From Verrucomicrobiota bacterium (lineage in GTDB: Bacteria; Verrucomicrobiota; Verrucomicrobiia; Chthoniobacterales; UBA10450), in contig QHNQ01000028.1 in assembly GCA_003218135.1 (NCBI GenBank), positions 1-64,000 on the forward strand: a DNA stretch of 64,000 nt, written 5' to 3'. A program made the translations under genes and the position numbers. The notes below the pieces were generated by a model that ran no database searches, had not been told where the DNA came from, and saw nothing but the letters and a program-made list of their open reading frames with translations. Below are positions 33,196 through 37,226 of the stretch, piece by piece (the stretch's first letter is position 1; each line of letters opens with the position of its first letter).

Positions 33196-35523
33196 CTATT
33201 CGCGCAGTTCCGCGCCGAGGTCGCGCCGCAATCGCTCGCGAATTTTCGCGTGCGCTGCGTTCACTTCCTCACTCGTCAGTGTGCGACTTCGGTCTCGATA
33301 TGTCAATCTATATGCGAGCGACTTTCGTCCCGTCCCGATTTCGCCGCCGCTAAACAAATCGAACAGCTCGATGCTTTCCAAAAGCGGCTCGCGCGGTTCT
33401 CCAATCGTGCGCAAAATTTTTTCCTGCGAGATTTCGTCAGGCACGAGCATCGCAATATCGCGCCTGATCGCTGGATAGCGGTCGAGCTCTCGAAATTTCT
33501 TTGCCGATTCGCCTGTAGCCAAAAGGAGATCGGCGTGCAGCTCGGCAACGAGCACCGAACCTGGCGCGCTCGATTTGTCGGCCAAAAGTTGACCACCGAA
33601 CCCCACTAGCTGGTCGCCGGAACAAACTTCGACCGCGAGCGCGAGACCAGGGAATTTTCCTCGCCGAAACGAAAGATTTGGTACAACGCATTCGAGCGCG
33701 CCCTTGAGATCAAACAAGTCGAGGCTGCGTTTTGCCTGCGATCGCCAGTTCGGTGCGCCAGCGACATTTCCCCAGAGCAAAAGGGCAAGGTGCCGTTCCT
33801 CCTTTCCCGATGGCGGGATGAATGCGCGTCCGATTTCAAAAATCGAAACGCTCTCGGCCCCCGCGCGAATATTTCCTTCGAGCACTCCAAGCAAACCGGC
33901 GATCAAGCTCGGCCGCAGTGCGACGTGATCTTCGCTCAACGGATTTCGCAATTCGACTGCGCCTTTGCTGAACGCCGAAGCGTTTCGCGAAATTAATTTC
34001 GAGGTGCGCGCTTCGAAAAGTCCACGCGCAACCAGTCGCTCGCGCATGTGTGTTTCCAGATCGTACTCGCGATCGGCCGCGGTTGAAGGAGTGAACCGGC
34101 TGCGGTCTCTCCCCGGAATTTTGTTGGCACCGTAAGCGCGTACGACTTCTTCAATAAGATCGACATCGCGCTGCAAATCACGCCGGTAACTTGGAATTTT
34201 CCATTTTGTGATCTTGGCCGCGCTAATCTTCTTCAAACCAAAGTGCGTGAGAATTTCGTCGATCGTTTTGGGTTTGATCGCGATCCCCACGACACGGTCG
34301 CATTTTTCATAGATCAACGAAACGTCAGAGGGGTTCGATGGAAGCTCACCGGCAACGTGAATTTCCCTTGCCACAGTTCCGCCCGTAATTTCTTGAATCA
34401 GTTCCGTTGCGCGAGCTGACGCGCGCAGAACCATTTCCGGGTCGACGCCGCGTTCAAATCGGTAACTCGCGTCGCTTGGAAGATCCAGCTCCCGCGCGGT
34501 GCGCCGAACGCTCGCCGGCAAAAAGTAGGCGGCCTCGAGCAAAACATTCCTGGTCGACTCAGTAACGCCGGTCTCCTCGCCACCCATAACGCCGCCGATC
34601 CCCACAGCGCGTTCTTGATCGGCGACTACGCAATTGTCCGGTTTCAGCGAGTATGTTTTTCCGTCGAGTGCGAGAAACTTTTCGCCATCGCGCGCGAGTC
34701 GAACGTTGATGTCGCCTCTTAACTTATCGGCGTCGAACGCGTGCGTCGGTTGTCCGAGCTCGAGCATCACGAAGTTCGAGATGTCAACGATGTTGTTGAT
34801 CGAACGAATGCCAACGCTCTCAATTTCCGCGCGTAACCATTGCGGACTCGGCCCGACTTTCACTTTGTCGATCCTACGCGCGGAGAAAAATGGACACTCA
34901 GGTGTTGCGGTAATCGTCACGCCGGTTTTTTTGACGGGTATTTTCGCTTCGCGGGGCGTCGACTTGAGTTTCTTGCCGGTCAGCGCGGCGATTTCGCGCG
35001 CGAGACCAAAATGACTGAGCAAATCGCCGCGGTTCGGAGTGATCTCGACGTCGAGAATCGTATCGCTTGGGAAAAGATCGGTAATCGGCGCGCCAACTTT
35101 TGCCTCCGGCGACAAAATCAGCAGACCCGAGGCGTCTTCGCCCAGGCCGAGCTCAATGGGGCTGCATAGCATTCCTTCCGAATCGACGCCGCGCAGTTTG
35201 CTTTTTCGAATTTCGGTCCCGTTCGGCAATTTCGCGCCTGAGAGGGCCAGCGGAACTTTATCGCCGACCTTATAATTGGTGGCGCCGCAAACGATTTGTC
35301 GTTTCGTGCCGCTCCCGTCATCCACTTCGCAAACGGTGAGTCGATCGGCATTCGGATGGCGCGACGACGCGGTAATTTGCGAAACAAGCACCTTCTCGAT
35401 CTTCGCGCGGCAGGTTTCGATGTTTTTGGTCTCGACTCCGGCGCGCGTCAACAAATCGGCGATCTCTTCCGGAGTCCTTGGAAGATCGACAAATTCGCGC
35501 AGCCAATTAACTAAAAATTTCAT
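33196..35523 (-). CDS. pheT: Phenylalanyl-tRNA synthetase beta subunit
   Basis: The 775-residue protein forms the alpha2-beta2 enzyme with PheS. It has an N-terminal MKFLVNWLREFVDLPRTPEE and a tRNA-binding OB domain about 40-150 (HPNADRLTVCEVDDGSG). The B3/B4 editing domain follows (about 200-370, LGQPTHAFDADKLRG). The catalytic-like core comes next, and the C-terminal anticodon-binding FDX-ACB domain (about 680-775) contains YPAIRRDIAMLVPDEIS. The frame is open to 35637, but the ATG at 35523 overlaps the pheS stop by 4 bases and gives the family start. Confidence 0.97.
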   Translation of the reverse strand: MKFLVNWLREFVDLPRTPEEIADLLTRAGVETKNIETCRAKIEKVLVSQITASSRHPNADRLTVCEVDDGSGTKRQIVCGATNYKVGDKVPLALSGAKLPNGTEIRKSKLRGVDSEGMLCSPIELGLGEDASGLLILSPEAKVGAPITDLFPSDTILDVEITPNRGDLLSHFGLAREIAALTGKKLKSTPREAKIPVKKTGVTITATPECPFFSARRIDKVKVGPSPQWLRAEIESVGIRSINNIVDISNFVMLELGQPTHAFDADKLRGDINVRLARDGEKFLALDGKTYSLKPDNCVVADQERAVGIGGVMGGEETGVTESTRNVLLEAAYFLPASVRRTARELDLPSDASYRFERGVDPEMVLRASARATELIQEITGGTVAREIHVAGELPSNPSDVSLIYEKCDRVVGIAIKPKTIDEILTHFGLKKISAAKITKWKIPSYRRDLQRDVDLIEEVVRAYGANKIPGRDRSRFTPSTAADREYDLETHMRERLVARGLFEARTSKLISRNASAFSKGAVELRNPLSEDHVALRPSLIAGLLGVLEGNIRAGAESVSIFEIGRAFIPPSGKEERHLALLLWGNVAGAPNWRSQAKRSLDLFDLKGALECVVPNLSFRRGKFPGLALAVEVCSGDQLVGFGGQLLADKSSAPGSVLVAELHADLLLATGESAKKFRELDRYPAIRRDIAMLVPDEISQEKILRTIGEPREPLLESIELFDLFSGGEIGTGRKSLAYRLTYRDRSRTLTSEEVNAAHAKIRERLRRDLGAELRE

Positions 35524-36536
35524 GCGAACTGGCGAAGGAACCGCAAATCGTTTTGCGCGAAGAGGCGGATGTCGGGGATATCGAACAAAATCATTGCGAG
35601 ACGATCCATACCGAGACCGAAGGCAAAGCCGCTCCACTTTTCCGGGTCGTAAGCTTTGTCGCCGCGCGCTTTGTTGACCTGCTCGAAAACGGCAGGATGC
35701 ACGACACCTGAGCCGGCGACTTCGATCCAGCGTTCACCGCCCTTGAGCGCTTTCGATTTCACGTAAACCTCGAGGCTCGGCTCAGTGAACGGAAAAAAGT
35801 GAGGCCGAAACTCCACTCCTGTATCCGCGCCGAACAATTCGCGCATGAAGAACTCGAGCGTGCCTTTCAAATCGGCCACGCTGACGTTTTCATCGACGTA
35901 AAGACCTTCGATCTGGTGAAACTGCGGGCTGTGCGTTGCGTCCAGTTCGTCGCGGCGATACGCGGCTCCGGGCGCGATTACGCGAATCGGCGGCGGCGCG
36001 CCTCGCATGGTGCGGATTTGCACGGTCGAAGTGTGCGTGCGCAGCAATCGCCCGTCCGGCAGATAAAATGTGTCCTGCTCGTTGCGCGCCGGATGTTCGG
36101 GTGGCGTGTTGAGCGCATCGAAACAATGCCATTCGTCTTCGACGTCCGGCCCATCTGCGAGCGCGAAGCCCATCCGACGAAAAATTTCGATCGAGCGCTC
36201 CCACATTTGGGTCAGCGGATGCAATGCGCCAATGTCGCGCGGCGTTCCGGGAAGTGAGATGTCGATTTTCGCGAGCGCACCCGATTCTTTCTGCGATCGA
36301 AATTGTTGCGCACGCGCTTCGATTGCGGCGGTGACGGCGTTGCGAACGTCGTTGAGCAACTTACCAATGACCGGCTTCTCTTCCTTCGCGAGCGTTTTCA
36401 TTTGCTCGCCCCACGCGGAAACGCTGCCGCTCTTTCCGAGATATTTTACGCGTACGGACTCGAGCGCCTGTTCGTCAGGCGCGGAACCGATTTCGCGCAG
36501 CGCTTCGTCGCGGAGTTGTTCGAGCGGGTGGGTCAT
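35520..36536 (-). CDS. pheS: Phenylalanyl-tRNA synthetase alpha subunit
   Basis: The 338-residue class II synthetase subunit has an N-terminal coiled coil (about 1-85). The catalytic core shows HPLTQMWERSIEIFRRMGF, GPDVEDEWHCFDALNTPPEH (motif 1 region) and RTHTSTVQIR, then motif 3 GFAFGLGMDRLAMI near the C terminus. It attaches Phe to tRNA-Phe together with PheT. The ATG at 36536 was chosen over an open frame to 36776, because the extra residues overlap an intergenic repeat. pheS follows rplT by 124 bases. Confidence 0.97.
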   Translation of the reverse strand: MTHPLEQLRDEALREIGSAPDEQALESVRVKYLGKSGSVSAWGEQMKTLAKEEKPVIGKLLNDVRNAVTAAIEARAQQFRSQKESGALAKIDISLPGTPRDIGALHPLTQMWERSIEIFRRMGFALADGPDVEDEWHCFDALNTPPEHPARNEQDTFYLPDGRLLRTHTSTVQIRTMRGAPPPIRVIAPGAAYRRDELDATHSPQFHQIEGLYVDENVSVADLKGTLEFFMRELFGADTGVEFRPHFFPFTEPSLEVYVKSKALKGGERWIEVAGSGVVHPAVFEQVNKARGDKAYDPEKWSGFAFGLGMDRLAMILFDIPDIRLFAQNDLRFLRQFA

Positions 36537-36583
36537 TGGAGCGAAACGTGAACGTTTAGCGCGCGATGTCCAACGCGAATCGG

Positions 36584-36660: not shown

Positions 36661-37038
36661 TCACGCCGCTTTTTTGTTCTTCTTCTCCAGCGCTGCTTTA
36701 GCCTGGTCAATAACCGATTTAAATGCCGCTTCGTCAGTGACTGCGAGATCGGCAAGAATTTTCCGGTCGAGGCCAATGCCGGCGGCTTTCAATCCTTCCG
36801 CAAAACGGCTGTAGTTCATTCCATTCGCGCGCGCAGCCGCATTTAGCCGTTGAATCCAGAGATAACGAAACGTGCGTTTCCGCGTTTTGCGGTCGCGGTA
36901 CGCCCAATACCGCCCTTTCATGATCGCGTCTTTCGCGTAGCGGAAAAGTTTTGAACGGCGACCGCGGTAGCCTTTGGCTTTTTTTAAGATTCGTTTACGG
37001 CGCGCCCGGCTGGCCGGGGCATTAGTGGCTCTTGGCAT
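36661..37038 (-). CDS. rplT: Ribosomal protein L20
   Basis: The 125-residue basic protein of the large ribosomal subunit has [20 protein letters not shown], then [20 protein letters not shown] and [20 protein letters not shown], which are diagnostic. In E. coli L20 also represses its operon by binding its own mRNA. Here the usual upstream rpmI and infC are absent. The gene starts its own run rplT-pheS-pheT. A hairpin (37047-37068) and a larger structured element (37099-37158) precede the ATG at 37038 and could be a feedback leader. Confidence 0.97.
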
Positions 37039-37046
37039 TGTTGTTT

Positions 37047-37158
37047 GCCCCAAAAATCGCGTCGGGGCTCCTCGTTCAGCGAGCTGTTGTTCCGTTGTCG
37101 ATCTTTCCCACCTCGCTCACTGATTCATTCCGCGCACGCGGAATAGGCGGAAAGATCG
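37047..37158 (-). promoter_or_regulatory. Structured 5' leader of rplT, possible L20 autoregulatory element
   Basis: On the minus strand an outer stem cgatctttcc/ggaaagatcg (10 perfect pairs, 37099-37158) encloses a hairpin attccgcg/cgcggaat. Next to the start codon, gcccc-gacgcgattttt-ggggc (37047-37068) would hide the G-rich ribosome-binding region seven bases from the ATG. Such pairing fits translational feedback by L20, but I cannot match it to a known L20 leader class. Confidence 0.5.
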
Positions 37159-37226
37159 CGGGCCAGAAAGTAAATGCTGAACGCAAAATGACAACCGCTT
37201 TTCGTTGGGATTTCGGCATTCTTTCG

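Follow-up and report, generated by a model that had tools for sequence, protein, structure and literature searches.

How is the gene for ribosomal protein L20 controlled where it stands apart from its usual operon partners? The window (the whole 64,000-nt stretch of verrucomicrobial DNA that was analysed) holds an rplT gene with a structured leader. A sequence-only reading had described the gene as standing alone, without infC and rpmI, and had suggested a phylum-specific L20 leader. We compared the locus with its relatives and conclude that the leader is probably an L20 autoregulatory RNA (r-leader). On the evidence of sequence comparison and analogy, L20 would stabilize a pseudoknot beside the Shine-Dalgarno sequence (SD) and exclude the 30S subunit.

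The rplT locus and its relatives

The genome of the window is a 2.75-Mb, 87%-complete draft of a soil verrucomicrobial. Its L20 is 86–94% identical to that of genus-level relatives, and among named genomes a Candidatus Udaeobacter record gave the best L20 match. infC and rpmI are present in one copy each on other contigs (C130 and C111), with no ribosomal neighbours at either. Of the family-level loci with 700 nt or more of upstream sequence, 67 of 67 lacked rpmI upstream of rplT; in more distant loci it was upstream in 35 of 35, separated by 92–306 nt. Therefore, the stand-alone state is real and lineage-specific, and it is probably derived.

Outside the window's family, relatives carry the same leader between rpmI and rplT. 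The leader is retained at rplT both in lineages with rpmI upstream and in those without. Downstream of rplT, ORFs resembling pheS and pheT follow on the minus strand (window ~35520–36540 and 33196–35637). The window keeps the rplT-pheST order known from other bacteria despite the loss of infC and rpmI.

Architecture of the leader

The upstream regions of relatives aligned over ~120 nt. Alignment A1 (46 leaders) was made with MAFFT, and no structure was used. Alignment A3 (75 leaders, the window and 74 relatives) came from covariance model R1, which was built without the pseudoknot pairs. The features are as follows, with their support in brackets.

36661–37038, minus strand: rplT, ribosomal protein L20, 125 aa, ATG at 37038 (PF00453 match, E 6.9e-41)
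37039–37160, minus strand: structured 5' leader of rplT, whole element, 122 nt (R1 match at 37030–37161, 120.7 bits, sole match in the whole genome)
37145–37158, minus strand: 5' strand of helix P1 (12 of 14 P1 pairs changed on both sides in 75 leaders)
37127–37144, minus strand: hairpin P2 within P1, AUUCCGCG/CGCGGAAU (8 of 8 pairs changed on both sides)
37115–37123, minus strand: 5' strand of the pseudoknot (PK), UCAGUGAGC, then GAG (9 of 9 pairs changed on both sides)
37099–37113, minus strand: 3' strand of P1, its inner end starting with the AG of the conserved GAG (covariation and invariant innermost pairs)
37085–37088, minus strand: conserved AACA directly before the PK 3' strand (AAC invariant and the last A nearly so in A1)
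37076–37084, minus strand: 3' strand of the PK, GCUCGCUGA, downstream of P1 (helix scan, covariation and swap test)
37068–37073, minus strand: SD, GAGGAG, 2 nt after the pseudoknot (conserved in A1; spacing statistics)
37047–37068, minus strand: hairpin P4 between the SD and AUG, ending 8 nt before AUG (8 of 8 pairs changed on both sides where present)
37167–37194, minus strand: conserved promoter, −35 TTGTCA at 37194–37189, 16-nt spacer, −10 TACTTT at 37172–37167 (comparison of relatives)

The perfect 10-pair stem around a hairpin, seen earlier in the single sequence, is exact: CGAUCUUUCC (37158–37149) pairs with GGAAAGAUCG (37108–37099) and encloses a hairpin. The leader was more stable than its shuffles (z −2.33), and 1 of 200 shuffles was as good. 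Comparison with the relatives shows that the leader folds into an H-type pseudoknot: P1 encloses P2, and UCAGUGAGC, the strand that follows P2, forms a helix with GCUCGCUGA. An A-rich loop with AACA crosses P1 in this fold. The pseudoknot abuts the SD of rplT (PK 3' strand at 37084–37076, SD at 37073–37068). The stems of the sequence-only reading are conserved, but its description lacked the key element, the pseudoknot.

Covariation of the helices

When A1 was scanned for helices, a helix of nine pairs emerged that joins the strand following P2 to the one preceding the SD. In this alignment, 27 of 39 pairs changed on both sides, and the covariation score was 0.312, compared with 0.183 ± 0.006 in shuffles. 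No shuffle reached the observed value on any measure. The share of paired cells was 90%, against 28–44% with the pairing slid.

The larger alignment A3 showed the same: 37 of 39 pairs changed on both sides, with 639 double-changed cells versus 184 ± 13. All nine pseudoknot pairs covaried, although R1 treated the PK as unpaired, and 91.7% of the PK cells were paired, versus 26–44% when slid. The covariation and conservation that the earlier reading had asked of related rplT upstream regions are therefore strong.

Examples of PK strand pairs in relatives are TCAGCGAAT:ATTCGCTGA, CGGGCGGGT:GCCTGCCCG, CGGAACTGGT:GCTAGTTCCA and CGAACGAAT:GTTCGTTCA. When strands were swapped among 15 divergent representatives, own partners formed 7.4 of 9 pairs and swapped partners 5.6; none of 5000 permutations was as high. 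Some parts did not vary. The two innermost P1 pairs (C-G and U-A) were invariant in 75 of 75 rows, and the GAG after the PK 5' strand and the AACA before the PK 3' strand recurred throughout the leaders.

Promoter

The pattern TTGnnn-N16-TAnnn, set after inspection of the alignment, was present upstream of P1 in 42 of 54 relatives. A generic sigma-70 consensus scan listed no promoter; the conserved one was below its threshold and visible by comparison only. The promoter ends ~9 nt outside P1, and the predicted transcription start, near 37160, coincides with the base of P1. A promoter inside the structure would have counted against a leader, but the conserved promoter is located outside it. In many relatives (e.g. 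L002, L008 and L023), an extra small hairpin GACGC...GCGUC was present between the promoter and P1. The window is without it.

Spacing of the Shine-Dalgarno sequence and the start codon

The second hairpin, P4, had been thought to cover the ribosome-binding site. We reject this role: P4 is between the SD and AUG, it pairs only the last G of GAGGAG, and a constant ~8 nt is left to AUG. The SD–AUG distance was 24–33 nt in 68 of 70 leaders with P4, and P4 ended 7–10 nt before AUG in 62 of 70. The SD of P4-less leaders (n=9) was 6–11 nt from AUG in seven of nine. Based on the constant P4–AUG distance and the short SD–AUG distance where P4 is absent, P4 is read as a bridge, which most likely reduces a spacing of ~28 nt to ~8 nt.

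Such bridging has been demonstrated by experiment in T4 genes 25 and 38, where a hairpin between the SD and AUG raises translation (PMC3014915). The split ribosome-binding sites of these genes go from 27 to 11 and from 22 to 5 nt (PMC3014915); here, the values are about 28 and 8 nt. Unlike the T4 cases, this is a cellular ribosomal-protein gene, and there is an upstream pseudoknot in addition.

The T4 precedent and the spacing of P4 would also fit a constitutive translation module, in which pseudoknot and P4 serve as a standby or split ribosome-binding site with 5'-end protection and keep L20 output high without any protein ligand. We consider this unlikely. The elaborate pseudoknot, in which GAG and AACA are unpaired and conserved, goes far beyond what spacing needs. 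It is conserved also in leaders where P4 is absent, and it occurs specifically at a gene whose product is a known autoregulator.

A hairpin CUCG(CUGAA)CGAG that would hide the SD as a switch was not favoured either. Its stability was −2.3 kcal/mol, versus −14.6 for the PK duplex, and it cannot form as written in relatives with the PK strand AUUCGCUGA.

Gene specificity and taxonomic range

Across the window's order, R1 matches were directly upstream of rplT in 73 of 75 sources searched, and the single match in the own genome was the rplT leader. A wider model, R2, gave seven matches with E < 1e-3 in 195 genomes of the phylum, and all seven abut rplT. Two marks of an r-leader were thus found: a conserved, covarying RNA structure in the mRNA leader and consistent adjacency to the cognate ribosomal protein gene.

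As R2 dropped weak members over the phylum under strict filters, the upstream regions were read directly. The same pseudoknot was found in further families of the class. Several other classes had almost no leader, and rpmI and rplT were separated there by a short gap only. Judging from these upstream regions, the pseudoknot leader belongs to the order of the window and to certain other families in the class. The idea of a phylum-specific leader holds in so far as the element is lineage-specific and conserved, with significant matches at rplT only; it is not phylum-wide and is confined to parts of one class.

A detectable element was absent in a few relatives (e.g. L039). In one member of the family, L053 (just upstream of 3001), the promoter is kept and the whole leader is absent, with ~10 nt from the −10 element to the ATG. 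This rplT mRNA would be nearly leaderless, and either a real deletion or an artefact of assembly could account for the absence. In the genus, three species (L005, L091 and L109) have an elaborated P2 arm of ~100 nt, CCCAGCUACUUC...GAAGUAGCUGGG. Its full-length form had one match per genome, and no Rfam family matched it.

Many class-level genomes have a conserved GGGURA...CGACCC hairpin with a flanking complementary stem before rplT, distinct from the pseudoknot. These are L147, L148, L150–L152, L183–L186, L188–L192, L195 and L196, from families f13, f16 and f19–f22, which are probably Opitutales and relatives. Possibly the hairpin is another L20 leader, unrelated to the first.

Comparison with known L20 leaders

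Searches of Rfam 15 gave no match at the gathering threshold, and with E up to 10 only a chance match to a miRNA model was found (13.8 bits). The Rfam L20 leader models matched neither this locus nor the E. coli L20 operator. In a systematic survey of ribosomal leaders, those for L20 are from Gammaproteobacteria, Firmicutes and Deltaproteobacteria, and Verrucomicrobia go unmentioned (PMC7247131). Our search of the openly accessible literature found no L20 leader described for Verrucomicrobia. Accordingly, L20 leader control is of a known kind, and the RNA shape is undescribed for the phylum in the literature searched.

The E. coli L20 operator (infC-rpmI-rplT) combines a pseudoknot with an irregular hairpin. 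Its pseudoknot, like the one here, is close to a translation start. L20 as the regulator and translational control by competition with the ribosome are documented in the literature for E. coli and expected here. The E. coli operator, a long-range structure in the infC–rpmI interval, acts first on rpmI, to which rplT is coupled. The pseudoknot here is local, of the H-type and directly before rplT, with the P4 bridge and, in the window's family, its own promoter. The leader described here is not between infC and rpmI; where rpmI is linked, the leader follows it and would not repress rpmI directly, unlike in E. coli.

The Firmicutes L20 leader (B. subtilis infC operon) is likewise the leader of an L20-encoding transcript, with L20 as the expected ligand. 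However, it is an attenuator before infC, and here the element has no terminator and is before rplT. The L20 r-leader motif of Deltaproteobacteria (Eckert and Weinberg 2020, PMC7247131) is similarly bioinformatic, supported by covariation and found in one lineage. That motif is listed for Deltaproteobacteria only (PMC7247131).

L20 as the proposed ligand

L20 is proposed as the ligand because the adjacent gene encodes it and because its autorepression is proven in E. coli and B. subtilis. In E. coli, it acts via a pseudoknot before rpmI, by competition with the ribosome (PMC10931766; PMC6962249). In B. subtilis, it represses the infC operon by transcription attenuation (PMC6097659). The statement in the sequence-only reading that L20 is an autoregulator elsewhere agrees with these papers. 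By this analogy, the element is likely a member of the L20 leaders, with L20 as the presumed ligand and repression of rplT as the presumed outcome.

The leader showed weak sequence resemblance to the L20 site on 23S rRNA. In a profile scan of E. coli 23S rRNA, the sole reference, the H40/H41 site at 998 ranked third of ~2900 positions with one 14-nt profile and was outside the best six with the other profiles. The published signature of L20 mimics is two consecutive G-C pairs and an AA dimer (PMC7247131). It is largely present in P1 of the window's family, as two C-G pairs and mostly AA. Across the 75 leaders, only one of the two G-C pairs was invariant; the second pair and the AA varied more widely. 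The genome of the window yielded no 23S rRNA, and none turned up in five relatives searched with an exact pattern.

The scan did not single out H40/H41 and the case for L20 is built by inference, which leaves some room for a regulatory leader with another ligand (another ribosomal protein, a ribosome-assembly factor, a metabolite or temperature). We give this even less weight than the constitutive module, as rplT was directly downstream in every significant match and L20 autoregulates in two other phyla. Attenuation as in the B. subtilis infC operon (PMC6097659), where L20 binding would shift the fold to a terminator, is highly improbable here: the rplT strand carries no U-run terminator, A-rich RNA follows P4, and ~8 nt separate the end of P4 from AUG.

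Proposed mechanism

The only terminator-like site nearby was on the other strand, and since the rplT strand has none, translation is the likelier level of control. In the preferred reading, autoregulation by L20, the transcript from the upstream promoter would start at the base of P1 and fold into the H-type pseudoknot. L20 in excess of free 23S rRNA would bind the pseudoknot junction (the invariant CU/AG pairs, GAG and AACA). Bound L20 would stabilize the pseudoknot 2 nt from the SD and compete with or exclude the 30S subunit, and translation of rplT would drop. With abundant rRNA, L20 would depart and the ribosome would gain the SD, with P4 setting the correct spacing.

A further reading is more tentative, and we hold it to be possible rather than probable. 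One class may have two unrelated L20 scaffolds (the pseudoknot and, in other families, the GGGUGA...CGACCC hairpin), and the pseudoknot with a split ribosome-binding site needing P4 may be an undescribed, L20-controlled two-element translation switch.

Implications

The alignment is suited to a new Rfam family. The related loci include Chthoniobacter flavus records and the isolate genome Spartobacteria bacterium LR76, so tests in culture seem possible. If the proposed reading is true, the leader is another L20 scaffold, in a phylum for which no described L20 leader was found, and it widens the question of how several unrelated RNAs sense one ribosomal protein. It would also show a Shine-Dalgarno sequence bridged by a hairpin in a cellular gene. 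For this lineage, it would mean that the leader stayed at rplT after the upstream rpmI was lost, with a local promoter where rpmI had been.
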